From contig NZ_VTKZ01000004.1 in the NCBI RefSeq assembly GCF_020514115.1, positions 124,001-188,000 on the forward strand: a DNA stretch of 64,000 nucleotides. The letters are read 5' to 3'. A program made the position numbers and the translations under genes. Each line of letters begins with the position of its first letter. Within the stretch, counting starts at the first letter, position 1. The notes below the pieces were generated by a model. The model searched no databases. It saw nothing but the letters and a program-made list of their open reading frames with translations, and had not been told where the DNA came from. Below are positions 1 through 15,943 of the stretch, piece by piece. Source of the stretch: Synechococcus sp. MU1642 (GTDB lineage: Bacteria > Cyanobacteriota > Cyanobacteriia > PCC-6307 > Cyanobiaceae).

Positions 1-1
1 A

Positions 2-268
2 ATACCCACGATTGATGATTCCAGCCGAGAGGGTGACGAGCGAATTTCTTTATGGATGTCACCGGTAAATCACTCTTTTGTTGAAACAAAAAACCCACGG
101 TACAGTGGCACATTAACGATAAAAGACGACGACGCCTTGCGTCCTTCTTACTATTCGTTGAGAACGATTGGTGATGTAGCTGAAAGCGTGAACGGTTGCA
201 AGATTTTGCTCCAGACAAGTGGAGCCGTTGGTTGCAAGAAATATGGCTCCGCTGCACCGAGCAGATGA
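2..268 (+). CDS. C-terminal fragment of a Calx-beta repeat protein (5' end outside window)
   Basis: The frame is open from base 2 and ends at TGA 266-268, so the gene begins upstream of the window. The first 35 or so residues end in the pattern EGDERI ... TLTIKDDD, which matches the closing strands of a Calx-beta repeat. The next stretch (PSYYSL ... SVN ... TSG) resembles the opening of another repeat, but it is not completed before the stop. Calx-beta repeats occur in large secreted or surface adhesins, which are common cargo of cyanobacterial islands. The abrupt end inside a repeat suggests truncation. No function beyond a surface repeat protein can be read from this piece. Confidence 0.6.
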   Translation: MPTIDDSSREGDERISLWMSPVNHSFVETKNPRYSGTLTIKDDDALRPSYYSLRTIGDVAESVNGCKILLQTSGAVGCKKYGSAAPSR

Positions 269-456
269 GCCCCGTCCCGATGCCTCAGTCGAAACCGTTC
301 TGACTACGGCTATGTCGCCTCACCTACTACCGAATCGCAGACAGTCTTATCCATCGTGCATGGACCAGATCACCCGAGCCACACCTACCAACCTCTTGTG
401 GGGAGTTTCTCTGTTGAGGTCATAGCTCTGTCGGCTTTGCCATACCGGATAGGAGT

Positions 457-871
457 TCAGTCAACGAGTTCAGTGTCTTTGCGGACAAACCAGTCGGTCT
501 CATCCGCGAATTCTTTGTCGATGCGGTGCCGAGTCTCGACGACTTGGCGGCGTTGTGCCCACAATTCACTTACGAACTTGGCGAGTCGTTCCCGGTGATC
601 GCCAGGCTGCATGGCTACCAAGGGATCCTGTTCCGTTATTTCTGGATATCCAGAGGTCATCTAGATCGGGATGGTTGAACTCAACCCACAGCCAGATCTT
701 TGGTTGTAGGCCATTCCCCAAAAAGAAACCCCGGAGGTGTCTCCGAGGTCGCTCATCCTTTCGGTTGATCCCCATCACCCGACCGGACTGGACAAAACTA
801 GCCTCGTTGGACTCAGAAGCGCCAACAAATCCATATTCCGGACATAGTGCGGTGAAGTTCTGTACCGACTC
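457..871 (-). pseudogene. Remnant of an unidentified gene, two frames joined by a shift
   Basis: On the minus strand one frame reads from about 871 to 650 with protein-like text (SNEASFVQSGRVMGI, PKIWLWVEFNHPDLDDL). It then degenerates, while a second frame from about 660 to 457 continues with a hydrophilic, probably helical stretch (RERLAKFVSELWAQRRQ, RIDKEFADETDWF). The two overlap around 650-660, as expected for a one-base indel. The upstream open region begins right after a TAA at 872-874 and has no clear start. I do not recognise the family. I infer a decayed gene, although two short unrelated ORFs cannot be excluded. Confidence 0.35.
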
Positions 872-942
872 TTAAGACACCACATGTGGGGCTAGGCAGT
901 GGCTTAGAGCTGGGCCATATTGTCAGTTCCCCCATCACCCGG

Positions 943-972
943 CCCGATGTGCGTGTCACAGCGGGTTTTTTT
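943..972 (+). terminator. Possible rho-independent terminator
   Basis: A stem of nine pairs with one mismatch (CCCGATGTG ... CACAGCGGG, loop CGTGT) is followed directly by seven T on the plus strand. No convincing plus-strand gene lies immediately upstream, so it may be left from a deleted gene. Confidence 0.5.
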
Positions 973-1069
973 ATGCCTTGAACCACTAGCAGTAGTGCTT
1001 TTGAGGTGCTTTGAGGCTCGAAGCTGCAGTTAGCGCTACTTGGTATGTGGATAACGCGAGGCAAAAGGA

Positions 1070-1091
1070 AACCCCCGCCGAAGGCAGGGGC
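1070..1091 (-). terminator. Weak hairpin, possible minus-strand terminator
   Basis: CCCC and GGGG arms enclose a GCC/GGC inner stem with a GAA (TTC) loop and one mismatch. On the minus strand it is followed by TTTCCTTTT, a poor U-tract. A minus-strand frame with some coding character lies upstream (about 1100-1230), but it has no clear start. Confidence 0.3.
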
Positions 1092-1425
1092 TCCAAAACG
1101 TCTCTCGGGAATGTGACCTTGTTTCCACCCCGTGAGGCGTTTTCCCTCACCTCATCACTATCCGCACCCAACTGGCACAGTGACAGTTGTGGGTGGACGG
1201 CTTGTGGCTTGTCCTTAGCCAGCTTCTTGAGCCCAGCCCATCACCCTCTGCTGTGTCGGCGTGATGTCTTGACTGTGGCATTGGGGTAACTCAACATCCA
1301 ACGTGGTCACGTTTTAGTGCAAATGTCGTCCCCTACACCGCAAATTCGTCCCACATAGGGATATTTATTTCACGCGGCTGGGTCAGGTAGACCACTACGC
1401 GACAACCACATATCAATCTAGTTCA

Positions 1426-1626
1426 ATGAGCCGAAGAGGAATCCACCCGCTGCTGATGGGTTTGGACAAACCGAAGCCCAAACCACATTTCTCAAAACAG
1501 ACAGATCTGAGTGGTTACGAGTCAGCCCAGAGAAAACGGTTTCTGCGGGCGGAAATAGAAGAGGAAAAGCTGGCTGCGGCAGCGGGGCGCCGACATCTCC
1601 TCAACCTGGAACGCCAAGTGGCGTGA
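1426..1626 (+). CDS. Small hypothetical protein, 66 aa
   Basis: A short ATG-initiated frame encodes a basic, charged protein: a proline/lysine-rich N-terminus (about residues 14-22) followed by a predicted helix rich in E, K and R (about 35-65). There is no signal peptide, membrane segment or cysteine. No strong Shine-Dalgarno sequence precedes the start. The family is not recognised. It lies in the degraded left part of the island, so it may be a real small accessory gene or chance coding. Confidence 0.35.
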   Translation: MSRRGIHPLLMGLDKPKPKPHFSKQTDLSGYESAQRKRFLRAEIEEEKLAAAAGRRHLLNLERQVA

Positions 1627-2046
1627 TCGACGTCTGAAGTCTTTTGGCCACGGGCTGGTAGGCGTCTCGTCGGTAGTCCGCGATACCACTGAACAGACGT
1701 TCACGGAAGATTTTCTGGAAACTAAAACCTGTCCAAAAAGTTGCTGCAAACTCCGGCGTTAGCCCCCATATTTGGTGTCCAGGCAGCAGACGCGTATCAC
1801 GTGTCACTGTCCAGGCAGCATCGGGAGAGCGACCCGGTAGCTGGCAGATACAGCCCCCATGGCAAGAGCGATTGTCATGGGGAGCTTTCTGCGCATTTCA
1901 GATCTCTGAAAAGAGTTGGTGCATTCTCACTAAAGCTGTGTATTGCAACGAACTTGTTTGCAGCGGATACCGCATCTCTCGCGGACAACGCCGTTCTCCT
2001 TGCGGTTTCGTGGCCTCACATCATTGATTCGGTTAGTGGCTGTTAG
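1627..2046. other. Stretch without a convincing gene
   Basis: Several short overlapping frames exist on both strands, but none has a start, composition or motif that supports a gene. One minus-strand frame around 1610-1800 has faint protein character. The stretch is best seen as decayed island DNA. Confidence 0.4.
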
Positions 2047-2256
2047 TCAGCCCAACCGATAGAAGGGGCTGTCAGTGTCAGACCCTTGGGCCGCCCAACG
2101 TGTTCGACGTTCAGCGGTCGTCCTCAAAGATCCCGGATCGTTCTCTTTGTATCCCGGAAGATCAGTGGGCTGAGCCAGGACGTAAACGACTGCCGCAGAT
2201 ATAACCACGGTGACGATGACGAGCGCAGTGATGGCTGATGAATAGTCGGCGATCAG
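2047..2256 (-). CDS. Small membrane-anchored protein without a canonical start, about 69 aa
   Basis: Between a TGA at 2060-2062 and the stop at 2047-2049 the minus strand has an open frame. It encodes a hydrophobic helix (SAITALVIVTVVISAAVVYVLA) and then a polar tail ending in SDTDSPFYRLG. The text looks protein-like throughout, yet the only candidate start near the 5' end is CTG at 2254-2256, and no ATG, GTG or TTG precedes the helix. It follows two other minus-strand small genes closely and could be translated by coupling from them. Alternatively it is a fragment that has lost its start. The family is not recognised. Confidence 0.35.
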   Translation of the reverse strand: MIADYSSAITALVIVTVVISAAVVYVLAQPTDLPGYKENDPGSLRTTAERRTRWAAQGSDTDSPFYRLG

Positions 2257-2274
2257 GCTTCAACCTCAGCTTTT

Positions 2275-2376
2275 TTATCGCCTGTGCCTCGCTTTGACCT
2301 TTAAGGCACGCTTGTTGCGCCATACGGCGAGATAACCGCCGAGCCCTAAGCCAACTAGCAGGAGTAGTGGGCTCAT
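2275..2376 (-). CDS. Single-helix membrane peptide, 33 aa
   Basis: A 33-codon ATG frame encodes one hydrophobic segment (residues about 3-18, LLLLVGLGLGGYLAVW) followed by a strongly basic tail (RNKRALKVKARHRR). This is the positive-inside pattern of a small N-out membrane protein. It begins 16 bases downstream of the glycine-zipper gene stop and precedes the 69-residue frame on the same strand, so the three may be one transcript. It does not match any photosystem small subunit I know. Function unknown. Confidence 0.4.
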   Translation of the reverse strand: MSPLLLLVGLGLGGYLAVWRNKRALKVKARHRR

Positions 2377-2392
2377 GCGTGTTCAGAGAGCA

Positions 2393-2818
2393 TTAACCAC
2401 CATCTACCTGACAGCCGACCACCGCTCCTGCCGCAGCCCCAACCGGGACTCCCACCCAACGGCCTTCTTTTCTGGATAATGCCGCTCCAAGACCAGCTCC
2501 AAGCAGTCCACCAATCACACTGCCCTGACTGCAGTCGTTGTTGTCGACATCAGCCGTTTGGTGTTTTTGTGTAGAGGATCGAGACGGCGTGTCAGAACAA
2601 GCTATCTCTACCTTTTCAGTCCAGTTACGTACGTATCCGGGCCTGTCTTTTGTGCCAGGGATGTATTCCTCCCTGTATTCGTCCCGAAAGCACTGAGTGG
2701 TGTGCGAATAACCAGGCTGCGAGACCGTTTGAGCTTTGGCTCCTGCAAGGCCAATGCATGGCACTGTCGCGGTGCCAATCAGAAGGGATGCAAGAGCAGC
2801 CTTAAGCGCAGGCATCAA
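2393..2818 (-). CDS. Secreted glycine-zipper 2TM protein
   Basis: The 141-residue product starts with a signal peptide (hydrophobic core to about residue 28, ending near AKAQT). The C-terminal 45 residues are a glycine-zipper pair (GSVIGGLLGAGLGAAL ... VGVPVGAAAGAVVGCQV) like the Gly-zipper 2TM / 17 kDa surface antigen domains, which insert in or span membranes. The middle part carries Cys and many charged or aromatic residues. Likely location is the periplasm or outer membrane. The exact role is unknown. Two adjacent ATG codons (2818 or 2815) could serve as start. It heads a group of small minus-strand envelope genes in the island. Confidence 0.65.
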   Translation of the reverse strand: MMPALKAALASLLIGTATVPCIGLAGAKAQTVSQPGYSHTTQCFRDEYREEYIPGTKDRPGYVRNWTEKVEIACSDTPSRSSTQKHQTADVDNNDCSQGSVIGGLLGAGLGAALSRKEGRWVGVPVGAAAGAVVGCQVDGG

Positions 2819-2985
2819 GTTCGTTCCATTTCCTGAACGTTATCCCCCTTCATGAGTCGAACCCAGTTCATTTGACGGATATGTAGTGCTGAAGTCATGG
2901 AATGTGAAGAAGATGACTGAAGACAGCAATCGCAAGAGTTTCTTCCTGGCCTTGAGGACTCGCCTGGAATGCAAGAAACCTTGAG

Positions 2986-3228
2986 CTACGCCTCCCTGTC
3001 GTCTAGATAGGCCTGTGGCACTGAAGAATTGCAGCGTTGGTGAGCCAATGACTTGTAGGCGCTCTTCTCAACTCTGTTCAAGGACCTCCACTTCGCTTGG
3101 TCCAACCACTCTCTTAGCGCTGTATCTACACAGTTTTTGTAACCTTCATCTGGATCAAATCTCTCCCAAGCTCTAACAGGGTTTGCCGAAACCAGCAGAG
3201 GGGTGAGCAGCAGCAGTAGCCATTTCAT
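2986..3228 (-). CDS. Small secreted protein, 80 aa
   Basis: The N-terminus MKWLLLLLTPLLVSA is a clear signal peptide, with likely cleavage after the alanine near residue 20. The mature part of about 60 residues has two cysteines (YKNCVDTAL and HQRCNSS), spaced to allow one disulphide, and many charged residues, and it ends DDREA. It is probably periplasmic. The family is not recognised. Its neighbours are other short secreted proteins of unknown function. Confidence 0.55.
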   Translation of the reverse strand: MKWLLLLLTPLLVSANPVRAWERFDPDEGYKNCVDTALREWLDQAKWRSLNRVEKSAYKSLAHQRCNSSVPQAYLDDREA

Positions 3229-3273
3229 CGCATAAGGCTCGGTATCTCACTCAGTTTGGCTAGGAGCTTGGAT

Positions 3274-3546
3274 ATGCCCAACAAAGACCGCAGCTTTCAC
3301 GAGGCGCCACAGAAGGCCGGTGGTGAAGGGTGGCTGTATTCCGAGCAGCAGCAGCAGCTCTGTCACTTCAAGCCCGACACGGCGACGGTTCACGCGCAGT
3401 GGGTAGCCATCAGGACGTACAGCTACGTTCCGCCCCGCCCGCCTGAGCCGATCACTCGTAGGCGGATGCTGCGGCACAACGCGATTGAGGCTTGGCAGAC
3501 CATGCAGAAGACGGGTTGGAGGCCCTGCCCCCCGCCTGTTCGCTGA
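3274..3546 (+). CDS. DUF1651-like protein
   Basis: The product has the layout of the DUF1651 proteins that marine Synechococcus carry in many copies: EGWL near the N-terminus, a short beta-rich segment (LCHFKPD), a central PPRPPEPITRRRMLRHNAIEAW core, and a final GW motif (KTGWRPC). The start at 3274 is chosen because AGGAG at 3262-3266 sits seven bases before it. A TTG at 3256 would overlap that site. DUF1651 proteins have no known function and cluster in islands. The opposite-strand frame here is a shadow. Confidence 0.7.
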   Translation: MPNKDRSFHEAPQKAGGEGWLYSEQQQQLCHFKPDTATVHAQWVAIRTYSYVPPRPPEPITRRRMLRHNAIEAWQTMQKTGWRPCPPPVR

Positions 3547-3733
3547 AAGCAATCGTTTTTCGCTAAGTCAAGCGAACCCAGCAGTTTGCCGCTGACATGG
3601 GTCCGCGTCCCGCCCGGAGCCCTCCAGAACGGGACACATCTCAAATACGCCAGTGACACCAGTCGATTCAGCGTGAATTGATACCAACTTCGGTATTTTG
3701 TTACTGATAGAAAAAAGGGGTCAGAGTGGCGCC

Positions 3734-3940
3734 ATGAGCAACACCAATGATCCGAACGCATGGCATCTGGGTCTGCGTCAGCCAATGGGGGGTGACCCTC
3801 TAAATGAACCCGTCATGGCGGCGATATACGGCTACAAGTTCAATGGCGAGTTATGGCGACTCAATGACCAGGGCTATCCAGAGCCTTTGTTAGAACCCAT
3901 GCTCGGCCGGTGGGAACAACTGCACTATCCCGAGGGGTAG
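3734..3940 (+). CDS. Small hypothetical protein, 68 aa
   Basis: An ATG frame encodes a soluble, acidic, aromatic-rich protein (WHLGLRQPMGGDP, YGYKFNGELWRLND, LGRWEQLHYPEG) with no signal or membrane segment. The composition is clearly protein-like. A G-rich stretch about 15 bases upstream is a poor ribosome site. The family is not recognised. It lies between the DUF1651 gene and a Cys-rich peptide gene, 0.4 kb from the integrase. Confidence 0.45.
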   Translation: MSNTNDPNAWHLGLRQPMGGDPLNEPVMAAIYGYKFNGELWRLNDQGYPEPLLEPMLGRWEQLHYPEG

Positions 3941-3973
3941 ACCTCAAAATGGTTACCCCCGCCTGTGCGCTGA

Positions 3974-4174
3974 TTATTCGCAGCAGCCGCATTGTTGCAG
4001 GGGAACCACTGTTACCCCGCTAACGACATTTGAATCCATAAGCACCTGTCCTTGAACTCCGCCACTGGGGTCTTCAGCTAGTTCCACAGCAAGCCCAACT
4101 AGCTCCTGTCCGTTGGCTTTCGTGTAGTTCAACAGCTCCACGCGTTGGAGTTCTTTGGGAGTGGACACAGGCAA
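3974..4174 (-). CDS. Small protein ending in a CGCC motif, 66 aa
   Basis: The 66-residue product is acidic and soluble and ends VVPLQQCGCCE, so all its cysteines lie in the last few residues. The N-terminal part (KELQRVELLNYTKANGQELVGLAVELAEDP) looks like a helix pair. A C-terminal Cys cluster on a short protein can be a metal-binding tail or a modified-peptide core, but no maturation enzyme gene is visible nearby. It is convergent with the preceding small gene. The family is not recognised. Confidence 0.4.
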   Translation of the reverse strand: MPVSTPKELQRVELLNYTKANGQELVGLAVELAEDPSGGVQGQVLMDSNVVSGVTVVPLQQCGCCE

Positions 4175-4375
4175 TAAAGCGATTTTGAGAGCTTTTTAAC
4201 GCTGATCTGACTCCCCGCATCGCCTCAAGAAGTCAGTGGTGTTATCAGCGCCCAATTGTCATTGGAGAAACCATTGGAAGGAGGCTGCAGGAACCCTCCG
4301 AAGACAACATCACCCCTGAAGGGGTTATGTGCCGTTCAGATGAGGCGATGGCAGTGACCAAATGAGCCGCGACTA

Positions 4376-5662
4376 CTACTGCTGTTGCTGCATCTGCTGC
4401 TGACGCTTGGTCAGCGATGCGGTGAGCTTGGCGTTGGCTGCACCAAAGGCAGCATCGAGGCCAGCCTCATCAGTCCACTGGCCGTAGTGCTTCATGTGAG
4501 TGCGCACGTCGTGGCCCATGGATGCAGCGAGTTGTCTGAGAGGTATGCCGGCAAGGGCTCCGCGGTAGGCGTAGCCATGCCGAAGGCTGTAAGGGGAGAG
4601 CCCAGGATTGGCCTTCACCAGCGCAGCCCAATAGGGATGGCGATCGAGGTATTGCCGGAAGGTGTGCCCGCAGGTTTTGAAGTCTTGAGCGTTCAGGATC
4701 CCGACCGGCAGCTTGACCAGCCCGCTGCTGAGCTGAGCCAGAGCCTGACCTGCTGCACCTGCGAGTTCTGAAATCTCCAGTGGGTAGGCAATGCGATCGG
4801 GCTTGGGAGCCTTTGCTGTTGCTCGGTTGCGTTTGACGTTGCCGACCTTGAGCTTCCCGTCCTCCACACGCATTGCTTTCAGCTCTGCTGGACGTAGACC
4901 GAACAGCCCCACAAGGGTGACGGCGAGGCGTAGCTCCGGCTTCTGGTAAAGGCTGTCGATCAAGCCAAAGAGCTGCTCAGGCTTAACCGGGACTTTGTCC
5001 TCTTTCCTCGTCTCCGCCAGGCCGATTAGGTCTTGGAGATCGTCACCTTCCAGTGGGAGGTACGACGCTTCTGCACCGCACTTTTTGACCGCAAAGCGCA
5101 GGAAGCGTGAAACATCGAGCAGGGTGCGCTTGCGTCCGACGCCACCCAGCTTGAGGTCTGCCAGGTGCTGGCTTGTGTAGTTCCGCATGACACCTGGCCC
5201 ATCATTCGCAGCCCCGCGCCCTTTGGCGCAGATCAGCTCGATGGTGCGTTCAATGCGACTGCGTTCCTCGCGGTCGTAGGTCGCAGCTTTGACCTGTCCT
5301 GTGCTGACGCGGCTGGCCTCATATCGCTTCGCCACTTCCTGCCAGTTCACCGAGCCGCCAGCACCCTTCTCAGGCGCTTTGCTCGTCAGCTCATAAGCGG
5401 CGTAGAGCCCCAAGTTGAGGTCAGCCATCTTTTCGATCAGCTCACCGATCAACACCTGGAGTGCTGTGCCGCTGCTGGGTGCAAAGGCGATGTTGGTGCA
5501 GATGGTGGGGCGCTTGGCTGCCTTGCCCTGAGCGTCACGTCGCGGGCCTTCGATTTTCTGGACTTTGAAGTTCCCTGATTGCTCTTCAAGCACCCACCCC
5601 TGGCCATAGGTGCGGCGCACCGTTGAGCGGAGGTCTTTCAGCCAACGGGCCGCTTTGGCCAT
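4376..5662 (-). CDS. Tyrosine recombinase / integrase
   Basis: The 428-residue protein has an SAM-like core-binding middle region and a C-terminal tyrosine-recombinase catalytic domain. The first catalytic arginine lies in GLRPAEL (about residue 256). The second box reads YSLRHGYAYR (about 363-372), then GH in MGHDVRT and the nucleophile tyrosine in MKHYGQW (about 395). The usual histidine of HxxR is Tyr here. The C-terminus ends in a glutamine run. It reads away from the tRNA-Ala fragment 180 bases upstream, the usual position for an island integrase. It probably catalyses recombination at the tRNA-Ala 3' end. Intact by eye. Confidence 0.88.
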   Translation of the reverse strand: MAKAARWLKDLRSTVRRTYGQGWVLEEQSGNFKVQKIEGPRRDAQGKAAKRPTICTNIAFAPSSGTALQVLIGELIEKMADLNLGLYAAYELTSKAPEKGAGGSVNWQEVAKRYEASRVSTGQVKAATYDREERSRIERTIELICAKGRGAANDGPGVMRNYTSQHLADLKLGGVGRKRTLLDVSRFLRFAVKKCGAEASYLPLEGDDLQDLIGLAETRKEDKVPVKPEQLFGLIDSLYQKPELRLAVTLVGLFGLRPAELKAMRVEDGKLKVGNVKRNRATAKAPKPDRIAYPLEISELAGAAGQALAQLSSGLVKLPVGILNAQDFKTCGHTFRQYLDRHPYWAALVKANPGLSPYSLRHGYAYRGALAGIPLRQLAASMGHDVRTHMKHYGQWTDEAGLDAAFGAANAKLTASLTKRQQQMQQQQ

Positions 5663-5840
5663 GAGCGCCTGATGGGCATGCAGGTGCTCATTCTCTCCGA
5701 TTTAGTGTGTTTTTCTAGTGTGTTTTCTGCATGAACTTGCTACGACATGTCCCTGCAACACTCGGAGCTGATCTGTCCAAGCCAGTAATAGCAATAGATT
5801 TAACCTGATAGTCGCAGGGTTCTCAGAGATTTGCTGAGAC

Positions 5841-5884
5841 GCTTAGCATGCAGGGGGTCAGGAGTTCGAGTCTCCTTGGCTCCA
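5841..5884 (+). repeat. tRNA-Ala(GGC) 3' fragment, att-type repeat, copy 1
   Basis: This stretch reads as an anticodon loop TTAGCAT (TTGGCAT expected), stem strand GCAGG, variable loop GGGTC, a perfect T-arm AGGAG-TTCGAGT-CTCCT, acceptor strand TGGCTCC and discriminator A. The acceptor implies a G3-U70 pair, the alanine identity mark. The 5' half of the tRNA is absent. Positions 5852-5885 repeat at 9827-9860 with two mismatches in 34 bases. It lies beside the integrase, as expected for an attachment-site remnant. Confidence 0.8.
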
Positions 5885-5918
5885 TTCACAAGCAAAGTCA
5901 GTTCAGGACTGACATTTG

Positions 5919-5942
5919 AGCGGTCCATAAGGGCCGCTTTTT
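5919..5942 (+). terminator. Rho-independent terminator after tRNA-Ala fragment copy 1
   Basis: AGCGGTCC-ATAA-GGGCCGCT forms an eight-pair stem with one G-T pair, followed by a T-run. It lies 35 bases after the tRNA fragment and probably travelled with it as the original tRNA terminator. Confidence 0.75.
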
Positions 5943-6180
5943 AGTACAAAACAGCTAAATATCATTTTTTGTGCGCCAAATAGCCTTAGAGGGCGGCATG
6001 AATATACTCATCAGCCGTTGATTCATTACGACTTCCAAGTTCCTGATCGTAATTTTATGTTAGATGTTTCTATTCAGCTTGGCTTTTAGGAGAATTAGGT
6101 AGTTCGTGAGCTAAGTTGACCTCATTCACTCAAACTGCATTGACAGTTGTTCTCGCGTTTCCCAATAAGTCACTTTAATT

Positions 6181-7638
6181 ATGAAAGTCAAGACAAATAG
6201 TAACAAGGAATCAGCCAAGTTTGGATTTGGTGCGAAACCTGGTTGGCTGTTCTTGGTAATAGCTATTTGCGTTGCCTTTGGCTTACGGGCATTACTTTTG
6301 GTTGATGCCTCAACTCTTTGGGGTGATGAGCTTTATACTGTAGGGAAGAGCTTTCTTCCAAGCTTTAGAGGAATGCTTGGTAATTTAAAGGGGGATATGC
6401 ATCCTCCTTTTTACGACATCTTGCTCTGGCTATGGGGCCGTTTGTTAGGCCAAAGCCCAGTCACCCTTCGTTTATTGTCATGGCTGACTTACTTGGCAGC
6501 AGGCTTCATCATGGTTCGCCAAGCGTCAGTTCTTGGTGGTGCACGCCCCAAGGTGATCGCTATCGCAATGATTTTTGCTTTCTGCAGTCCATATCCGCTT
6601 CGTTTTGCGATTGAGGGTAGGAGTTATTCACTGCTTGTTCTTTTGATTACGCTTCTTTGGTGGTGGCGTAATGCAGAAAATCGATTGTTTTACGGAGTTG
6701 CTGCTTGTCTCACCGGACTTACGCACTTTTATGGAATAGCTATTGTGCTGGCAGTTGCTACCTGGGATTGTTGGCAGCGACGATGGAATTTTGCGGCTGC
6801 TGCTTTGCTTGGCGCCATCCCCGGCTTGGCATATATTTGCTACGCATTTGATCATCTCAGTACATCTACACAAGCATCGTGGATTCCCCGGCCAAATTAT
6901 GGCTTATTTGAAGAAATCCTGGCTCGTGGTATTGGTATTTGGCCAATTCCAAAGTTGGCAATCTTTCTGCTTTTGATTATTGTCTTGAGGCGCTATGGAG
7001 GTTTGAAAAGTTATCGATGGCCTCAATTGTCTTTGCTCGACCGAAGTGGTGTGATGCCGTCCTTATTAATGGTTTTCGGGGTTGTTGTTATTTCTTTTGC
7101 TAAGCCGATTGCCTTTAGTAGATATTTTGTTGTGCTTACACCTGCTGTAGTTCCTTTTTTGGCTACTCAGTTGGGTGGTTGGGAACTTAATCGTTTTGGT
7201 CGTTCCTGTTTTCTTTTGGTGTTAGGACTTTTATTAGTTAGTTGGTGGGGACCCGGATTTGCCGAAATAGATACTGGTGTTAGCGGTATACGCGAGTCCG
7301 ATCAATTTCGTTCGGTTAGTCAGCGCACAAGTGGCTTGATAAATCGATACAGTCCTCGTGCACGGATGTTTAATCTCAGTGATCGCATGGAACTATCAAT
7401 GGGGCGTATTCCATTCAATCCGGATCCGTGGGGCAACTATTCAGACTTAAAAAGTCTTCTTGATAAGTCATCGCTACCGAAGGAACTGTGGCTTGCTAAC
7501 AGTGGTACAACAGCGATTAGTCAGCTAAATGCCCTGCAGTCATTCCAGGTTCAGGTTGAAAGCGTTGGTTTTACTTGCCAGGATCGATCAGCTGACCTAA
7601 CCCGTGCACGAGTCCTGCAATGTGAATACATTCCATAG
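6181..7638 (+). CDS. Multispanning GT-C glycosyltransferase (PMT/ArnT type)
   Basis: The 485-residue protein has about ten hydrophobic segments and the hallmark first-loop acidic motif WGDELYT (residues 47-53), followed by DMHPPFY (72-78). This is the pattern of GT-C transferases that take sugars from polyprenyl-phosphate carriers on the outer face of the membrane. The C-terminal 100 residues are hydrophilic and probably periplasmic. Its convergent neighbour makes such a donor, so the pair likely decorates a surface glycan or protein. The acceptor cannot be inferred. Base composition is visibly A+T-richer than the backbone, supporting transfer. It is the first gene after tRNA-Ala fragment copy 1. 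Confidence 0.8.
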   Translation: MKVKTNSNKESAKFGFGAKPGWLFLVIAICVAFGLRALLLVDASTLWGDELYTVGKSFLPSFRGMLGNLKGDMHPPFYDILLWLWGRLLGQSPVTLRLLSWLTYLAAGFIMVRQASVLGGARPKVIAIAMIFAFCSPYPLRFAIEGRSYSLLVLLITLLWWWRNAENRLFYGVAACLTGLTHFYGIAIVLAVATWDCWQRRWNFAAAALLGAIPGLAYICYAFDHLSTSTQASWIPRPNYGLFEEILARGIGIWPIPKLAIFLLLIIVLRRYGGLKSYRWPQLSLLDRSGVMPSLLMVFGVVVISFAKPIAFSRYFVVLTPAVVPFLATQLGGWELNRFGRSCFLLVLGLLLVSWWGPGFAEIDTGVSGIRESDQFRSVSQRTSGLINRYSPRARMFNLSDRMELSMGRIPFNPDPWGNYSDLKSLLDKSSLPKELWLANSGTTAISQLNALQSFQVQVESVGFTCQDRSADLTRARVLQCEYIP

Positions 7639-7915
7639 GTAGATATTGTACTGTTTCTACAATGATCTTTTTTAGAATATCAGACCCATGTATTGGTTAT
7701 TACTGTTTTTAGCCGTTTCAGTCATCAATTCAAAATATAGTAAATATTGGTGGTATTTCTGAACCTATATTTCCGGCCTGTGGTTTATAGGGTTCTTCGA
7801 GAGAAATATTTTTTAAGTTTATGCTGTATTATATTCATCGGCGTTAAGTTTTCAGGCCAAGATTTCGGGGTTTGGCTGACAAGGTATTAAGCGGCTTGGT
7901 TGGTAGGAAAATATT

Positions 7916-9031
7916 TTAGCTGCCTGCGACTTTCCATATAAACTTTGAGGTTGCAACGTAGTTCCAGATGTAAGCAACGATGATTCCTGCTAGTTGTGCG
8001 GTATTTGTATTTGAAATGAGTTCTTTGTAGACTAAGTTTGCTACACTTATATTTAGTGCTACTGGTAGGGATATAACGAGAAGGTATTGAATAAAGCCTT
8101 TAAGAAAATCCATGCCGTGCAGGCTCTCAAACCTAAAAGTTAGAATGTTATTTATGCAAAAATTTGAGGCGGCTGCTATAAATACTGAGGCAATCAATCT
8201 CGCCTCGAAGCTGGAACCTAAAGCGTTTTCAAGTGCGTGAAAGCTAATAAGCTGGACTAGAACGCCTATACATCCTACAAGCCCGAATGAGATTGCTCTT
8301 CTTGGAATTATTTTAAAGGTAAACCCGTAAGCAAGTGAAATGACGAAATCCCAAACTATTGGTATGTTTAGTTTCGACTCACCGTATTGCCTTTCTTCAA
8401 AGTCAAGGGGCACATCGCCACAAGAGATTGTTTTGCCTCCTGTCGAAAGGAATTCATACAAGAATTTAAACCCCTTGACCTCAATCCGTTTCGCAACTTC
8501 GTTCACATGGCTAGTGTTTTTTAATATAAAAAAACCGCTCATGTAATCGCTTAAATGACTGTGTTTTTTGTCGAGGCTTAGTCGAGCTATTTTGTTGGCT
8601 AGTAGTGATCCGTTTGTTCTTCTTTTGCTCAGGCCTCTAACGCTTGAGTCGTCCATGAATCTACTCCCTACTACTATGTCAAGGCTTTCATTAATTATTT
8701 TCTTTAGAGCAGATTTGACGTTTTCAGCTTTATGTTGTCCGTCGCTATCCATTACTACTATGTAATCGTTGTAGCTGTTGAGGATTCCTTCTTTGATGGC
8801 GCTTGCAAGTCCTTTTCTGTCAAATCTTTCTATGAGTCTGAGGTTGCTGTCTTCATTCGACCGTAATGCAATTGCTTCCTTGGTTCCGTCAGTTGAATTG
8901 TCGTCAATCACTAGGATGTCTAGTTTAAATTCGTTAAGCTCTTTATTTAACGAATCTATTAACCTGACTATATTATCTCTTTCGTTAAGAGCGGGAAGGA
9001 TTATGGAAATTGATGGATTCTCTTTATTCAT
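7916..9031 (-). CDS. Polyprenyl-phosphate sugar synthase (GT2) fused to GtrA
   Basis: Residues 1-235 are a GT2 domain like dolichyl-phosphate mannosyltransferase, with ILPALNERDN, VIDDNSTDGT (41-50) and the metal/nucleotide motif MDSDGQH (94-100). Residues about 243-368 hold four membrane segments of the GtrA family, thought to flip the lipid-linked sugar. The cytoplasmic domain would charge polyprenyl phosphate with a hexose, and the GT-C enzyme at 6181 could use it. Codon use is strongly A+T-rich, more so than its neighbour, which indicates recent acquisition. The two genes are convergent with 277 bases of A+T-rich spacer. Sugar identity is not readable. Confidence 0.88.
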   Translation of the reverse strand: MNKENPSISIILPALNERDNIVRLIDSLNKELNEFKLDILVIDDNSTDGTKEAIALRSNEDSNLRLIERFDRKGLASAIKEGILNSYNDYIVVMDSDGQHKAENVKSALKKIINESLDIVVGSRFMDDSSVRGLSKRRTNGSLLANKIARLSLDKKHSHLSDYMSGFFILKNTSHVNEVAKRIEVKGFKFLYEFLSTGGKTISCGDVPLDFEERQYGESKLNIPIVWDFVISLAYGFTFKIIPRRAISFGLVGCIGVLVQLISFHALENALGSSFEARLIASVFIAAASNFCINNILTFRFESLHGMDFLKGFIQYLLVISLPVALNISVANLVYKELISNTNTAQLAGIIVAYIWNYVATSKFIWKVAGS

Positions 9032-9325
9032 GGAATGACGTGCTTCTTTATATAGAACTGTACCACCTCGTGTAGTTTGTTCGGTGGTTATCGTGTTAGC
9101 TGATCTGTTCCTGCTTTGTTGGTTTAAGTCAGGATTGTTTGTGATTCATCTGGTTGTGTTGAGTTGCTCTGAGATTAGCCTTTGAAGTTGTATTAATATG
9201 GCTTGCGTTTCTCGTGTATTTGGCGATTAATTTTTTGCCTGTTTTTTGTCGGATATGCTTTAGTTGGATAATCATCGTTTTTCTGATTCTCTTCTCTGTA
9301 AAGTTCAGTTTTTAGTGGGTTATCC
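9032..9325. other. A+T-rich spacer upstream of the glycosyltransferase
   Basis: It holds the upstream region of the minus-strand GT2-GtrA gene and the leader of the plus-strand HTH pseudogene. No ORF, hairpin or clear promoter is convincing by eye. Confidence 0.4.
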
Positions 9326-9711
9326 ATGGCCAGGACAAGCAGGGCTGAACGCCACAGACGCCGTGAATTAGCTTTGGCTCTAGTCAGTCAGGGCAAAAGC
9401 TGCAGTGATGTTTTGATCGCTCAGATGTCTCAATGGGTTGCTCACGTTCATTTGCCCAGCGGGACTGTCGTTGGGCGCATGACCAGCTTGAACTGAGCGT
9501 TGATTCACACGATGCTCAGCATCTAATGGTGCACATGGCGACAAGCCTTCAACGCATCTCTCTCAAGGCTGAGGGGAATAAGCAATTCGCCGCGGCTGAC
9601 GGTGCCCAGAAGATGCTCTACGAGCTTTTGCTGCGCCGGAAAATGGATGACGAAGCTGCCAAAGCAAGTCGTCCTGGTTTGGGTCGTCGCCACGGCAACA
9701 CCCGGCATTAA
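9326..9711 (+). pseudogene. HTH DNA-binding protein gene with a one-base frameshift
   Basis: From ATG 9326 the frame reads a basic helix-turn-helix-like start (RAERHRRRELALALVSQGKS ... LIAQMSQW) and would stop at TGA 9495-9497. From the TGGG run at 9434-9437 the next frame continues the same protein (GCSRSFAQRDCRWAHDQLELSVD ... KAEGNKQFAAADGAQKMLYELL) to 9711. One extra G in that run would fuse the two parts into a protein of about 128 residues with an RTxQRDxxWA-type recognition helix, as in small regulators of mobile elements. It lies 115 bases before tRNA-Ala fragment copy 2. Probably a dead regulator. A sequencing error is the alternative. Confidence 0.6.
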
Positions 9712-9826
9712 AGATGACAACGTCATCTTTTTCATGCTTGACACACTAACTGGCGCACATCAGAGGTGTTTGCGGTTGCTGGCTGCTTTTGTGGTTTTGG
9801 ACTATCTGACCAACTTCACGACTAAT

Positions 9827-9860
9827 AGGGGGGCAGGAGTTCGAGTCTCCTTGGCTCTAT
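9827..9860 (+). repeat. tRNA-Ala 3' fragment, att-type repeat, copy 2
   Basis: It repeats 5852-5885 with two mismatches: the complete T-arm and nearly all of the acceptor strand, with CTCT in place of CTCC at the end. Unlike copy 1 it does not extend into a recognisable anticodon loop. It marks the right edge of the island, because ordinary backbone genes follow. Confidence 0.8.
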
Positions 9861-9874
9861 TTAGTTATCACGAG

Positions 9875-9903
9875 AGCTCTCGGAATTCCGCGGGCTTTTT
9901 TTG
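9875..9903 (+). terminator. Rho-independent terminator after tRNA-Ala fragment copy 2
   Basis: AGCTCTCGGA and TCCGCGGGCT pair over ten positions with one mismatch and one G-T pair, then a T7-type run follows. The same fragment-then-terminator order as copy 1 suggests that each copy came with a tRNA 3' end. Confidence 0.65.
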
Positions 9904-10026
9904 TTGCTTGACCCGGGCGGCGGAGCCCTTATTCATGGCAGAAGCAAGTGGGCTGGGTGATCAAAAACCGCGTCCGTCACGCTCCCGCATTTCCAGGCGA
10001 AGTTTCTGGTAGCGAAGCAAGGCCCG

Positions 10027-10203
10027 CTACTCATCCAGTTGAGGAAATAGCAAACGCGCCTCCTCCAGGCTCGGGGGATCCAAGAGCCAGTCATCAGAGC
10101 GATCCGGGGCCACTTGCTCAGGATTGCGATCCCAACGCTGGCGACCTGGCGCAACCCAGCCCAACAAGCGACGAAAGCGATCGAACAGCTCGAGTGGGTG
10201 CAT
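10027..10203 (-). CDS. Small protein, 58 aa, possibly shortened by an in-frame amber codon
   Basis: The frame from ATG 10203 reads MHPLELFDRFRRLLGW ... DDWLLDPPSLEEARLLFPQLDE and stops at TAG 10027-10029. The same frame continues after the stop for 20 more protein-like codons (RALLRYQKLRLEMRERDGRGF) to TGA at 9961-9963. The product is acidic and amphipathic with no membrane segment. I infer either a natural short form or recent truncation of a protein of about 80 residues. The family is not recognised by name. It is the first backbone gene to the right of the island. Confidence 0.5.
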   Translation of the reverse strand: MHPLELFDRFRRLLGWVAPGRQRWDRNPEQVAPDRSDDWLLDPPSLEEARLLFPQLDE

Positions 10204-10339
10204 CAAATCACCCTAGGAAGATCACGAATCCAAGCGCATCTGAGATGCGTGTGAGCTGGTTTGCAGCCGAGGGCAATGCTGTAACTGGGGGGTATCCATT
10301 GGCATGCTCCCCTTGGAGGATGTGAAAAACCAGCGCTGA

Positions 10340-10522
10340 TCAGCCCGAGGGACCAGCCTGTTCAGAGCGATGAACTGACTCGTTCCGAGGTATCAAGCTT
10401 TTAGGAGTTTGTTGCCGTGGATCCTCTCCGTTGCGCCAGGGGGTGAACAACAGGAAATTTCCGGCCACCAGCCCTGCCGTCACGATCACCGCAGCAAGCT
10501 GTTCCAGCTGTTCAACATCCAT
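10340..10522 (-). CDS. Small single-pass membrane protein, 60 aa
   Basis: After an acidic N-terminus (MDVEQLEQL) a hydrophobic helix (AAVIVTAGLVAGNFLLF, residues 10-26) is followed by a polar, proline- and charge-rich tail. It overlaps the end of the preceding minus-strand frame by 37 bases, so one of the two may be shorter than drawn. No family recognised. Confidence 0.45.
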   Translation of the reverse strand: MDVEQLEQLAAVIVTAGLVAGNFLLFTPWRNGEDPRQQTPKSLIPRNESVHRSEQAGPSG

Positions 10523-10716
10523 CCCTGCATTGTCACGCTTTCTCCGAGTAAGGGCGTCGCCTTAGCCGTTGATTGCTCGTAATTCAATCCTGTCTGCAGT
10601 TCTAGGCAAAGGGCCGTGCCCAGCATCACTGTGATCACGGCCAGCCCCTGAGTCAGCTTGAGCCTTCGCTGGGGTTTGCGGAAAGTACAGCAGGTCATAC
10701 CAGGACCTTGCTTCAC
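10486..10716 (-). CDS. Small membrane protein, up to 76 aa
   Basis: A basic N-terminus (RKPQRRLK) precedes one hydrophobic helix (LTQGLAVITVMLGTALCLEL), giving an N-in membrane anchor. The start could be ATG 10716 or the internal ATG 18 bases later. The C-terminus overlaps the next gene by 37 bases, which is unusual and lowers confidence. No family recognised. Confidence 0.4.
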   Translation of the reverse strand: MKQGPGMTCCTFRKPQRRLKLTQGLAVITVMLGTALCLELQTGLNYEQSTAKATPLLGESVTMQGWMLNSWNSLLR

Positions 10717-10796
10717 AGCCTGGTTTGAAGCCTCTTTTCAGTTCAGATTGAAGCGTTTGCCACGAGAAAGCTGGGAAAACGCTGAGACGACTGGGC

Positions 10797-11023
10797 TCAA
10801 TCCTCTTTTGGGTTCTCCAGGTCTCGGCGGATCAGAGCCAGCAGGTAGGAGGGGGACTTGTAGCGGGTTGGCAGGCAGCGGTTCAGCGTCTCTAGGTGCC
10901 CCCGCAGACCGTACGCTCAATGTCCTGAGCAGTTTTTCCCTGCTGGAGGAGACGCCGCAGCGCCTTGCAATACATCGGATATCCCGCCTCTAGTTCACCG
11001 ATGGTGAGTTTCGCCTGAGGCAT
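10797..11023 (-). pseudogene. DUF3136-like gene with a single-base deletion
   Basis: From ATG 11023 the frame reads KLTIGELEAGYPMYCKALRRLL ... IERTVC and hits TAG after 43 codons. In the next frame the protein goes on HLETLNRCLPTRYKSPSYLLALIRRDLENPKED to TGA 10797-10799. The intact paralogue at 30439-30672 has the same layout (LTIGDLEAGFSTYCQALRRLV ... TVCW ... LNRLHTSLPKDYRSP). Restoring a single T (TGC-TGG-GGG in place of TGCGGGGG) rejoins both parts and recovers the conserved Trp. The family is small, cyanobacterial and of unknown function. Likely a recent pseudogene or a base-call error. Confidence 0.7.
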
Positions 11024-11068
11024 GGGACCACTGAAGCCAGTTCCAACCTATGCCCCCGAGGGTCAGGC

Positions 11069-11461
11069 TCAGCTGCCGAGCCAGGCGACGCAGTCGATTT
11101 CCACCCGTGCTCCCTTGGGGAGGGCCGCCACCTGAAGGCAGGCGCGAGCTGGGCTGACCCCCTCACCAAATACCTCGGCATAGATGCCATTGACGGTTTG
11201 GAAATCGCCCAGGTCGGCCAAGAAGACCGTGGTGCGTACTACCTGAGCAGGGGTGGCGCCGGCTTCCTTCAACACAGCACAGAGGTTTTTCAGCACCTGA
11301 TGCGCTTCCGCCGCCACATCACCGTTACCCACCATCTCGCCGCTGGCTGGATCCAGGGGAATCTGCCCGGAGCAATAGAGCCACTCTCCGGCAAGCACCG
11401 CTTGGTTGTAAGGCCCAACCGGTGCAGGGGCGTCTTGAGTGGTGATGGCCTTGGCGCTCAT
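11069..11461 (-). CDS. ridA: RidA-family enamine/imine deaminase
   Basis: The product has the full RidA signature: PAPVGPYNQAV, YCSGQIPLDP, and the C-terminal ARACLQVAALPKGARVEIDCVA with the substrate-binding arginine. RidA hydrolyses reactive enamines such as 2-aminoacrylate made by PLP enzymes. It is a cytoplasmic trimer. The start at 11461 (MSAKAITT) is preferred because homologues begin there. An upstream ATG at 11494 would add eleven atypical residues. It lies just after gloB on the same strand with about 64 bases between, so both detoxification genes may share a transcript. Confidence 0.93.
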   Translation of the reverse strand: MSAKAITTQDAPAPVGPYNQAVLAGEWLYCSGQIPLDPASGEMVGNGDVAAEAHQVLKNLCAVLKEAGATPAQVVRTTVFLADLGDFQTVNGIYAEVFGEGVSPARACLQVAALPKGARVEIDCVAWLGS

Positions 11462-11525
11462 GGGGTGTTTCTGAACAGCATTCACCCCGATCATCGCCGT
11501 TGGTGATCCCGTTCTTCGCCATCGC

Positions 11526-12275
11526 TCATGCCGGCCGCCACTGATCCTTGTCCTGGCGAAGCATGGCCAACTCCGCGGCTGAACTGGCCTGCATGAACAG
11601 GTTGGTGCGGCGTTCCATGCCGATGCTGCTGGGCAGGCTTAGGGCGCCTTTGGCGCGAAGGCTCCGCACCTCCCGGTAACGATCAGCCAAAACCGTGTCG
11701 TTGGGGCGTTGCTCAACGGCCCATCGCAGATTGGACTCGGTGTACTCGTGGGCACAACACACCTTCGTGGCCTCGGGAAGTTCGGCCAGCTTCTGTAGAG
11801 CCTGATGCATCTGTTCAGCGCTGCCTTCAAACAATCGGCCGCAGCCCCCGCTGAACAGGGTGTCCCCGCAGAACAACAGCGGTCCGATCTCGGCGCCCTC
11901 CGGGTTCGGGATGAAGAAAGCGATGTGGGCTCTGGTGTGGGCCGCTACATCCAGCACCTCCACCTCTTCCCCAAGAACAGTGATCTGGTCTCCATCCCGC
12001 ACCGGCATGGTCTGGAACGGAATCCGCTCCCGATCATCAGCGGAGGCAATCACCGCAGACTGGGGCCAACTGTTCAGCAAGTCCGAAGTGCCGCCGATGT
12101 GGTCGGCATGGTGATGGGTCTGCAGGACGGCAGCCAGGTTCAACTGCCGTTCTTCCAGCCACGCCTGCACCGGCGGCGCAACAGCGGGGTCGATCACCAC
12201 GGCCTCCGCGCCCTTCACCCATATCCAGATCACGTTGTCCTGGAGAACCGGTAAGGCATGAAGTGAGGAATGCAT
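11526..12275 (-). CDS. gloB: Hydroxyacylglutathione hydrolase (glyoxalase II)
   Basis: A metallo-beta-lactamase fold hydrolase of 249 residues. The metal motif THHHADH lies at residues 53-59, [17 protein letters not shown] near the middle supplies a further ligand, and [10 protein letters not shown] a third histidine. It converts S-lactoylglutathione to lactate and glutathione, finishing methylglyoxal detoxification. Length is normal. It is divergent from hisG with 40 bases between them, so the two promoters must overlap. Confidence 0.92.
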
Positions 12276-12315
12276 CGTTAAAGTCCTGCCTGTTTAACCG
12301 GCCAGCGCTGGACCC

Positions 12316-12966
12316 ATGATCACCGTCGCGTTGGCCAAAGGAGCGCTGCTCAAAGACTCGGTGGCCCGCTTTGCCGCGGCTGGTCTCGATTTCTCCGCTG
12401 TTCTGGACAAGGACAACCGTCAGCTGATGGTGCCCACCCCTTGCGGGCGCGCTAGGGCCCTGCTGGTTCGCAACGGTGATGTGCCCACCTATGTGGCCTA
12501 CGGTCAAGCCCAGTTGGGGGTCGTGGGTTACGACGTGCTCAAGGAGCACCAGCTCCCCGTCGCACAATTGGTGGATCTCGGCTTTGGCGGCTGCCGCATG
12601 GCTGTTGCGGTCCAGGAGAGCAGTGGTTACGTCCGTGCCGCTGATCTGCCCCCCCATTGCCGGGTGGCCAGCAAATTCACCCACTGCGCTCGGGAATATT
12701 TCGATGCCCTCGACCTTCCCGTTGAGTTGGTGCACCTCAATGGCTCGGTGGAGCTGGGGCCAATTACGGGAATGTCGGAAGCGATTGTCGACCTGGTGGC
12801 CACCGGTCGAACCCTTAGGGACAACGGTTTGATCGCCATTGAAGACCTCTTCCAGTCCACGGCTCGATTGGTAGGACATCCCCTGTCCATTCGCCTGGAC
12901 AACGGCCCCCTGTCGTCAATCGTCGAAGCGATCCGCGCAGCAACACCCGTCGGGAGCTCCAGCTGA
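12316..12966 (+). CDS. hisG: ATP phosphoribosyltransferase, short form
   Basis: The 216-residue product matches the short HisG form, which lacks the C-terminal regulatory domain: [15 protein letters not shown] at the start, the VGYDVLKEH segment, and the phosphoribosyl-binding run [24 protein letters not shown]. It performs the first step of histidine synthesis. Short HisG normally needs a HisZ partner for full activity and feedback. No hisZ is in the window. The stop overlaps the ABC transporter ATG by one base, so the two are translationally coupled. Confidence 0.93.
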
Positions 12967-14744: not shown

Positions 14745-15244
14745 TCGCTCCTCTCCCCATCCCTGCTGAGTCGCTGTTGGAGCAGTACGGCCAGGGGGCG
14801 CGTCTCTGCACCTGCGCCAATGAACAGATCACCTTGGTGTTCAGCCAGGAGTACCCCTTCGATCTTGTGGAGCTCGAGCAGTTGCTGGAAGCGGTGGGCT
14901 GGAGTCGCCGGCCGATTCGTCGGGTGCGTAAAGCGCTCAGCCATAGCTTGCTCAAAGTGGGGCTCTGGCGGCACGACCCCCGGGTGCCCCGTCTGGTGGG
15001 TTTTGCGCGCTGCACCGGGGATGGTGTTTTTGAAGCCACCGTCTGGGACGTCGCCGTGCATCCCCTCTACCAGGGAAATGGTCTGGGCAAGCAGATGATG
15101 ACCTACATCCTTGAGGCCCTCGATCAGATGGGAACCGAACGGGTCAGCCTGTTCGCGGATCCGGGCGTCGTCAGCTTCTACCAGGGCCAGGGCTGGGATC
15201 TCGAGCCTCAGGGCCATCGCTGTGCCTTCTGGTACGCCAACTGA
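14741..15244 (+). CDS. GNAT-family N-acetyltransferase
   Basis: The 167-residue protein shows the acetyl-CoA-binding motif VAVHPLYQGNGLGKQMMTYIL (about residues 105-125) and a C-terminal FYQGQGWDLEP, typical of GNAT enzymes. It starts at GTG 14741 inside the ABC transporter stop region, a four-base overlap that favours coupled translation. Substrate unknown. The last gene of the hisG-ABC-GNAT run. It meets the glycosyltransferase pair tail to tail. Confidence 0.88.
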   Translation: MIAPLPIPAESLLEQYGQGARLCTCANEQITLVFSQEYPFDLVELEQLLEAVGWSRRPIRRVRKALSHSLLKVGLWRHDPRVPRLVGFARCTGDGVFEATVWDVAVHPLYQGNGLGKQMMTYILEALDQMGTERVSLFADPGVVSFYQGQGWDLEPQGHRCAFWYAN

Positions 15245-15253
15245 TCGGATCCT

Positions 15254-15943
15254 CTATCGCCGGTAGATCCGCAATAGCTGCTCCGTTGATCGGCCCTGAC
15301 GCCAGAGCCAGCGCAGCCGGGCATTGCGCCAGGTCTGCACCAGCACGCTCCGCTTCTGCCAGCGCCCCCCGCTGGTGAGAAGGGCACAGTTCAATGAGCG
15401 GAGGGACGCGACCTTGCTCAGGCGTTCCACCAGGTCCAGGTCTTCCATTAGCGCCAGGGGCCGGTAGCCGCCGACGCGCTCATAAAGCTGGCGCTGAATC
15501 AACAGGCCCTGATCGCCGTAGGGACGCTGCAGCCATCGGCTGCGCAGGTTCACCATTCGCTCCAGCAGCCACAGCATCGGCCGCCTCTTCGCATCCACAT
15601 TGAAGTCGAAGCACCAGGCGCTCAGGTGAGCCTCCGGCGTGTTTAGAACCGTCCTCACCCTTTGATGCCAAGTGCTCGGGAGTCGGCTGTCGGCATGCAG
15701 CACCAGCATCCAGGCATGGGAGCTGTGGTCAACGCCCCAGCGCAGCTGTGGCCCACGTCCGGCTTTCGGGCTGTCGAGCACGGTGGCACCGGCCAGCTGC
15801 GCCACTTCTCGGGTCTGATCCCTGCTCCCGCCGTCAGAGACGATCACCTCCAACTCCCCCGGCCATCGCTGCAGATCCGCCAGCAGCAGCGGCAGCCTGC
15901 TGGCTTCCTCCAGGGTTGGAATAACAACACTCAGCCCTGCCAT
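15254..15943 (-). CDS. GT2 glycosyltransferase, TIGR04283-like
   Basis: A compact 229-residue GT2 enzyme with LSVVIPTLEEASRL, VIVSDGGSRDQT and LHADSRLP in place of the usual DxD. This matches the TIGR04283 group annotated as arsenosugar-biosynthesis glycosyltransferase, though that role is poorly proven. It overlaps the TIGR04282-like gene upstream by 13 bases and the two nearly always occur together, so they likely work in one pathway. No arsM or other arsenic gene is in the window, so the arsenosugar label remains a family name. Confidence 0.8.
   Translation of the reverse strand: MAGLSVVIPTLEEASRLPLLLADLQRWPGELEVIVSDGGSRDQTREVAQLAGATVLDSPKAGRGPQLRWGVDHSSHAWMLVLHADSRLPSTWHQRVRTVLNTPEAHLSAWCFDFNVDAKRRPMLWLLERMVNLRSRWLQRPYGDQGLLIQRQLYERVGGYRPLALMEDLDLVERLSKVASLRSLNCALLTSGGRWQKRSVLVQTWRNARLRWLWRQGRSTEQLLRIYRR

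Follow-up and report, generated by a model that had tools for sequence, protein, structure and literature searches.

The tycheposons of Prochlorococcus, reportedly described by Hackl et al. in Cell in 2023, appear to be the closest named kind of element to the locus analysed here, the likeness holding for the features compared below. According to passages of one published account, tycheposons have a tRNA gene at one border, a tyrosine recombinase, cargo and a size of 4–200 kilobases (kb) (PMC10872708), and passages of another also speak of 'cryptic elements' beside the tycheposon clade (PMC10187409). The former passages also present fGI-2 of the Methylophilaceae as an additive flexible genomic island (fGI) with recurring tRNA 3′ repeats (PMC10872708). 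We analysed a stretch of 64,000 nucleotides of Synechococcus sp. MU1642 (hereafter the window; NCBI contig NZ_VTKZ01000004.1, in our notation of genomes G, contigs C and loci L, G000:C22:124001–188000). Positions 5849–9861 are best understood, with good confidence, as the distal unit (unit III) of an array in which three units follow one another at the 3′ half of tRNA-Ala(GGC): a cargo element of an integrase (int)/TerS-like family that later lost its integrase half and is now fixed, its gene gt39 probably standing in for a broken native gene. The names TerS-like and AlpA-like are labels given in this analysis.

Taken as a whole, the array resembles a tycheposon, as outlined in the passages cited above (PMC10872708), in its tRNA border, tyrosine recombinase, cargo and size, and relatives of the unit II integrase occur in Prochlorococcus records. 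It differs in that three units are stacked in a Synechococcus genome, none shown complete, and that unit III has no integrase. An intact tRNA at one end and a fragment at the other were found for the array, while unit III alone lies between two fragments. The resemblance to tycheposons proposed in an earlier, sequence-only reading of the window holds for the features compared here. The Methylophilaceae island, as far as the passages on it go, shares the several repeats of a tRNA 3′ end but belongs to other bacteria and uses another tRNA (Lys, last 20 bases).

The longer of two direct-repeat families in window 1–16000 was a pair of tRNA-Ala(GGC) 3′ fragments (window 5852–5886 and 9827–9861; 35 bases, 94% alike, two mismatches). 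With up to three mismatches allowed, a 24-base core of the tRNA was detected at four places in the 2.12-Mb assembly, all exact, on one strand and on contig C22; the reversed control pattern gave no match in the same assembly. The first core lies within an intact tRNA-Ala(GGC) gene at C22:114030–114104, approximately 9.9 kb to the left of the window, where the sequence-only reading had proposed to look for it. The cores bound three tandem units between lexA–tRNA and ridA–gloB–hisG. That reading had described two fragments around a single element; both fragments are present, but they belong to four copies and three units. The features are as follows (window coordinates unless a contig is given; att, attachment site).

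C22:114078, 123187, 129859 (window 5859) and 133834 (window 9834): the four copies of the 24-base core
Unit I: 9109 bases (9.1 kb), 55.2% G+C; the tRNA is directly followed by an N-terminal remnant of an integrase, and a TerS-like gene lies near the far end
Unit II, start C22:123212 (about 0.8 kb left of the window), window 1..5851: 6672 bases (6.7 kb), 53.5% G+C; cores at C22:123187 and 129859; absent from genome G022
4376..5662 (−): tyrosine recombinase of unit II, 428 amino acids, intact, just inside the distal att
5703..5724 (+): right arm-type pair of unit II, TAGTGTGTT, period 13; putative role
Unit III, 5849–9861: 3975 bases (4.0 kb), 42.9% G+C; flanks 59% G+C
5849..5886 (+): tRNA-Ala(GGC) 3′ fragment, where unit II joins unit III
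5919..5943 (+): terminator-like hairpin behind the att of unit III, read by eye from the sequence
5971..5979 (+): single left arm-type unit of unit III, GTGCGCCAA; putative role
6181..7638 (+): gt39 (a label of this analysis), 485 amino acids, intact membrane protein
7916..9031 (−): GT2-GtrA glycosyltransferase (gt2), 371 amino acids; extra diverged copy
9326..9711 (+): frameshifted TerS-like gene, helix-turn-helix (HTH) and helical hairpin; intact homologue in genome G033 (L092:2025–2411)
9738..9758 (+): TerS-proximal repeat pair of unit III; one unit degenerate, CTGGCGCAC kept at 9750
9827..9861 (+): displaced native tRNA-Ala(GGC) 3′ end, abutting element DNA
9862..12966: native right flank, with its own tRNA terminator, then ridA, gloB and hisG; continuous with the tRNA in G022
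About 9866–9903: terminator-like hairpin behind the second tRNA copy, read by eye from the sequence

Insertion of the array as a whole is shown by the empty site in a close relative, G022 (lexA 99% and hisG 99% identical), in which the native spacer alone lies between the tRNA and the ridA side. Bases 1–1028 of the G022 stretch matched the left flank of the array (94.8% identity over 1028 bases) and bases 994–3600 matched the right flank (92.3% over 2608 bases), the two matches overlapping solely at 994–1028, which is the 35-base tRNA end. Since both flanks meet at the tRNA end, the whole 19.8 kb is absent there and was added at the tRNA here. The same comparison identifies the fragment at window 9827 as the native tRNA 3′ end with its native terminator, in line with the earlier placement of the start of backbone genes after the second copy. 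G008 also has a short spacer, of which the first part differs. A terminator behind each copy had been proposed as well: the hairpins can be read in the sequence, and similar ones follow the tRNA copies at C22:114078 and 123187, but neither 5919–5943 nor 9866–9903 was among the output of a consensus terminator scan.

The frame around this site is conserved and its content is not. In 11 relatives for which both sides lay within the stretches taken (G002, G005, G007, G008, G013, G021, G022, G023, G024, G025 and G030), ridA, gloB and hisG follow lexA–tRNA-Ala(GGC) at varied distance; in G004, G006 and G029, ridA was not reached within the 14–16 kb taken behind the tRNA. With up to two mismatches, the core was found in 26 of 34 genomes of the genus sample and at two or more places in 12, including our own. 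Thirteen segments lie between two same-strand cores (three in our genome, two each in G002 and G013, three in G015, one each in G024, G018 and G017), and 11 carry an integrase match, some broken; the two without are unit III and the G017 segment (L089 48–9066). Other units thus occupy the same tRNA-Ala place in relatives, with varied content inside one conserved frame. Both marks of a tandem tRNA-targeted island, as the sequence-only reading had suspected, are therefore present: an empty site, with no duplication beyond the att core, and several same-strand att copies with varied content. Tandem tRNA-targeted elements are ordinary in kind.

The tyrosine recombinase that had been noticed just outside the first fragment belongs to the neighbouring unit II. 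It matched PHROG integrases (E 1.8e-15) and, below the cut-off, Pfam Phage_integrase (E 0.00025). One peptide pattern, taken from an alignment of 12 relatives, detected 39 loci in the genome collection, all in records of Synechococcus, Prochlorococcus, Cyanobium, Vulcanococcus, Aphanothece or cyanobacterium. We scored 36 of these, leaving out L194, L210 and L224, where the match is at or near a contig edge. A tRNA 3′ end (0–5 mismatches of 28, within 600 bases upstream) was found upstream of the integrase in 31 of the 36, at a distance of 156–306 bases: Ala(GGC) in 23, Val in three, Arg in two, Pro in two and Gly in one. As several loci are closely related, these are not 31 independent cases, and the library of 55 tRNA ends was partly drawn from the same loci. 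Among 210 random windows of the same loci, two matched (another tRNA copy, exactly), and the rest showed 8–13 mismatches. No tRNA end was found near the integrase in L189 (a truncated match), L192, L201, L215 and L226. The integrase lies on the strand opposite to the tRNA end in 22 of the 31 and on the same strand in nine; in 11 of the 22, the end is part of a tRNA called intact by ARAGORN (two called Asn). In Prochlorococcus L208, L209, L211, L212, L218, L220 and L223, the integrase is upstream of, and divergent from, a tRNA-Ala(GGC) called intact; Synechococcus loci so oriented have a fragment. The tree pairs the unit II integrase with a G015 integrase as sisters (100/100) in a clade of seven (98/94), whose other six members include one from Prochlorococcus AG-355-N18; tRNA-Ala ends adjoin five of the six. 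Against viral contigs, this integrase gave three weak matches (25–47%).

The kind of element from which unit III would have come is recognizable at other tRNA genes, where an intact tRNA is followed by cargo, a small TerS-like HTH gene, an integrase and a tRNA fragment (L160 and L164 at Arg; L166 at Pro), or, in the mirror plan, the integrase adjoins the tRNA (L161 at Val). The most complete relative, L164 of G033, carries int, an AlpA-like small HTH gene, an AAA-type gene and the TerS-like gene; an AlpA-like match without the AAA-type gene was found in L160 and L161, and neither in L166. Several elements hold a pair of small genes (approximately 135 and 120 amino acids) between the tRNA and the TerS-like gene (L160:6835–7592, L164:7698–8446, L092:3564–4336), and PHROG gave no match for the one protein of this pair searched. 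TerS-like family matches (E up to 0.001) occur in 104 of 300 family genomes.

Phage satellites, those like phage-inducible chromosomal islands (PICI) among others, carry a redirecting TerS. The gene set of L164 is reminiscent of such satellites, which are treated in PMC10803314 and PMC11389934. The difference is that neither sequence nor fold comparisons established the TerS-like protein as a TerS, and that neither the DNA of unit III, compared with phage records, nor the TerS-like family, compared with viral contigs, gave any match. Its predicted fold consists of an HTH followed by a helical hairpin (predicted local distance difference test score, pLDDT, 87), which we take to be the small-terminase plan. 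Foldseek gave no match at E up to 0.001 and a small terminase only at E 2.8; a further fold comparison gave Z 5.4, for the HTH part alone.

TerS-like genes were also seen 3–6 kb from transfer-messenger RNA (tmRNA) genes in L157, L163, L168 and L176, the last in our own genome and beside an integrase; tmRNA may be another target of these elements. L167 (G004:C1:497001–517000) holds an intact tRNA-Arg(TCT) and a tRNA-Ala(GGC) fragment with TerS-like remnants between, and one of its regions matches the cobW part of unit I at 89.5%; it is perhaps a hybrid of elements from two sites.

The ends of these elements carry a pattern of their own. Matched 9-base repeat pairs with a period of 11–13 were found just inside both ends in 11 of the 15 elements for which both ends were available (unit I, L160, L164, L161, L166, L068, L066, L073, two elements in L071, and L204). 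Within an element, left and right motifs agree, although they differ from one element to another. The ends agreed in part in L169 and showed no agreement in L193, unit II and unit III; shuffled ends gave a mean of 0–0.27 such pairs (periods 10–15). These pairs are candidate integrase arm sites. No repeat pair was found at the left end of unit II. In unit III, the left unit at 5971 and the TerS-side unit at 9750 are both of the GGCGCAC type, and no right arm sites were found.

A further pair occurs behind the TerS-like gene. Repeat detection alone (period 11–13) placed one within 110 bases of the stop codon in six elements (L160, L164, L161, L165, L092 and L206), and in all six the motif agrees with the element's own ends (7–9 of nine bases). 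The motif is GGCGCAC in three of them, and otherwise CTGCGCAC (close to GGCGCAC), TGCTCTAAA or TGAGCAC. We scored the 15 elements that have both a TerS-like gene and an arm pair against the arm unit of each (7 or more of 9 bases in both units): a match was found in seven of the 15 windows behind the gene and in nine of the 2151 overlapping windows taken from the rest of the same elements. The weak case among the seven is L071, with 7 of 9 bases, missed by repeat detection alone. Relatedness among the elements means that these are not 15 independent cases. In the other eight (unit I, L166, L068, L204, L075, L169, L159 and L207), no arm-like pair was found behind the gene; L181 has such a pair but no known arm pair, and stands outside the 15. 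Period-19 pairs behind the gene in L071 and L164 were rejected as arm-like, having no match to the ends of those elements. A fourth pair of the same motif lies inside the G144 element in L165 (element coordinates 3308/3320) and the G013 element in L068 (14506/14518), by our own arithmetic approximately 150–400 bases from an AlpA-like gene. We tentatively propose, as a possibility that is less likely to be right than wrong, that elements of this family carry, besides the end pairs, a third pair with their own motif behind the TerS-like gene. The integrase or another arm binder would bind there too, tying excision to packaging or its control, and with a near-copy of att close by, the integrase half could be shed, so that only a fixed unit with cargo, like unit III, is left. 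Among the listed papers considered in our literature search, whose reach did not extend to the central tycheposon and VEIME papers, none dealt with such a pair beside terS.

Unit III itself agreed with the description of an A+T-rich segment holding two putative sugar-transfer genes and a broken HTH gene, and likewise with that of an element with no recombinase. The best of 44 recombinase queries gave E 0.011 over 57 residues, which we judged a chance match and rejected as an integrase remnant; unit II by comparison has its intact integrase and unit I the N-terminal remnant. Behind the TerS-like gene, the alignment of unit III with G033 spans the repeat pair and some 70 bases beyond it and ends at the att. 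In G033, the aligned bases sit in a small lipoprotein-like open reading frame (ORF) that continues, whereas our sequence switches to the tRNA end. This ORF (L092:1764–1982, − strand, behind the TerS-like gene) has a 42% relative in a G015 element. At the switch point, CAGGTGGTCA of G033 matches CAGGGGGTCA of the tRNA at nine of ten bases; an equally good att match (shift up to 3 bases) occurs at 21 of 8970 positions of that G033 stretch. The right end therefore looks like a deletion between an att near-copy and the att site, by which everything from the lipoprotein-like ORF to the att, integrase included, would have been lost. Such a deletion would also explain why, compared with the other copies, the right att at 9827 lacks bases on its 5′ side. 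With no credible integrase trace, no right arm sites found and a frameshifted TerS-like gene, unit III is more plausibly a decayed cargo element, now fixed, than one moving in trans.

Of the two cargo genes, gt39, with no match in Pfam or NCBIfam, is read as encoding a putative GT-C-type sugar transferase. Of the 19 genus genomes with a completeness of 90% or more, 15 have a counterpart without stops; G004, G028 and our own genome have a broken one, and G029 gave no match. The neighbours of the native gene, named here as CCA/poly(A)-polymerase-like and oxidoreductase-like genes, are the same in G022, G004 and our genome, in which only pieces of native gt39 remain at the syntenic place, leaving the unit III gene as the sole full copy found. 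The unit III protein shares no more than 62% identity with any of the 17 native proteins of the genus included in the comparison, and its third-position G+C is 0.386 vs 0.65–0.81 in those natives. In the tree, it falls inside the genus clade (placement 83/79) on a branch of 0.72, compared with a median of 0.093. By these sequence measures, it is a diverged, AT-rich xenolog of a conserved genus gene, and it probably fills the role of the broken native gene. No match to gt39 was found among viral contigs. The gt2 gene was rejected as a second replaced core gene, another copy without stops being present at C11:5164–6246.

Taken together, these observations suggest the following course. Site-specific integration at the 3′ half of tRNA-Ala(GGC) would have built the three-unit array, each incoming unit supplying a replacement tRNA 3′ end and its own terminator, so that the tRNA gene remained intact while its native 3′ end came to lie at the far right. 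If each newcomer entered at the intact tRNA, unit III would be the oldest. At first it would have been a cargo-bearing member of the picocyanobacterial int/TerS-like family. The half with the integrase would then have gone, most simply through a deletion between the CAGGTGGTCA near-copy in an element gene and CAGGGGGTCA in the att, and the unit would have become fixed, with gt39 probably taking over from the broken native gene. Several points weigh against parts of this course. The deletion step draws on one relative, G033, which is not a direct parent, and about 0.2% of the positions in that G033 stretch would fit the att by chance. The order of insertion is something we infer only. The unit III gt39 sits on a long branch with weak placement, and in G004 and G028 the gene is broken with no replacement found; together with G029, these genomes indicate that gt39 is dispensable in some relatives, so the 'replacement' may be coincidence. 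Finally, sequence and fold searches did not establish a TerS identity of the HTH protein.

Among the other explanations, a non-autonomous unit III that is still mobile and served by integrases in trans, the last step of the sequence-only reading, has become improbable. Att sequences at both ends, a left arm-type unit and a TerS-side unit of one type, the second integrase-free segment in G017 and five Pfam integrase matches in the genome, that of unit II included, would suit such an element. However, each of the two pairs is down to one recognizable unit, no right pair was found and the right att is short and deletion-like. In addition, the neighbouring unit II has a different motif, TAGTGTGTT, and no other att-bounded segment among the fetched loci matched the gt39–gt2 part of unit III, only the TerS-like region being matched. 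A scenario in which recombination between arms or att copies mixed parts of larger elements, of which units II and III are what remains, is possible but on the doubtful side, and it overlaps our preferred explanation rather than excluding it. The mismatched ends of unit II, with no left pair and TAGTGTGTT at the right, compared with 11 of 15 elements with matching ends, would be accounted for in this way, as would the hybrid stretch of G004; for unit III, in contrast, the left and TerS-side units are of one type, as expected for a single element. That the fragments have no relation to mobility and the genes between them are ancestral is scarcely credible: the empty site in G022 rejects it, the four exact same-strand cores with no reversed-pattern match and the different contents in relatives speak against it, and no point was found in its favour.

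The remaining content of the array concerns units I and II. Unit I carries a metal-related set (L031:13582–18021, C22:117582–122021) of a cobW-like GTPase, znuA and hupE, with a cobalamin riboswitch accompanying hupE (L031:17230–17378). Its znuA is a second copy, closest to those in G016, G017, G018, G031 and G032 (80–82%) and 74% identical to the other copy of our genome; replacement of a core gene was rejected here, the own copy at C15 having no stops. Inside unit II, two small RNA families were detected, Cyano-2 at 1814–2018 (+; 170 bits) and Cyano-1 at 1092–1156 (−; 43 bits, gathering score 41).

The locus is of interest as an example of how elements decay and become fixed, for its stand-in gt39 and for the repeat pairs matching between ends. 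These pairs supply a sequence rule for true element ends, which may perhaps also tell which integrase acts on which element. Here an element carries a copy of a conserved gene whose native version has fallen apart, which makes element-driven replacement of core genes testable. For marine picocyanobacteria, the array would represent a series of stacking, decay and turning into ordinary chromosome, ordered by position if insertion always occurs at the intact tRNA.

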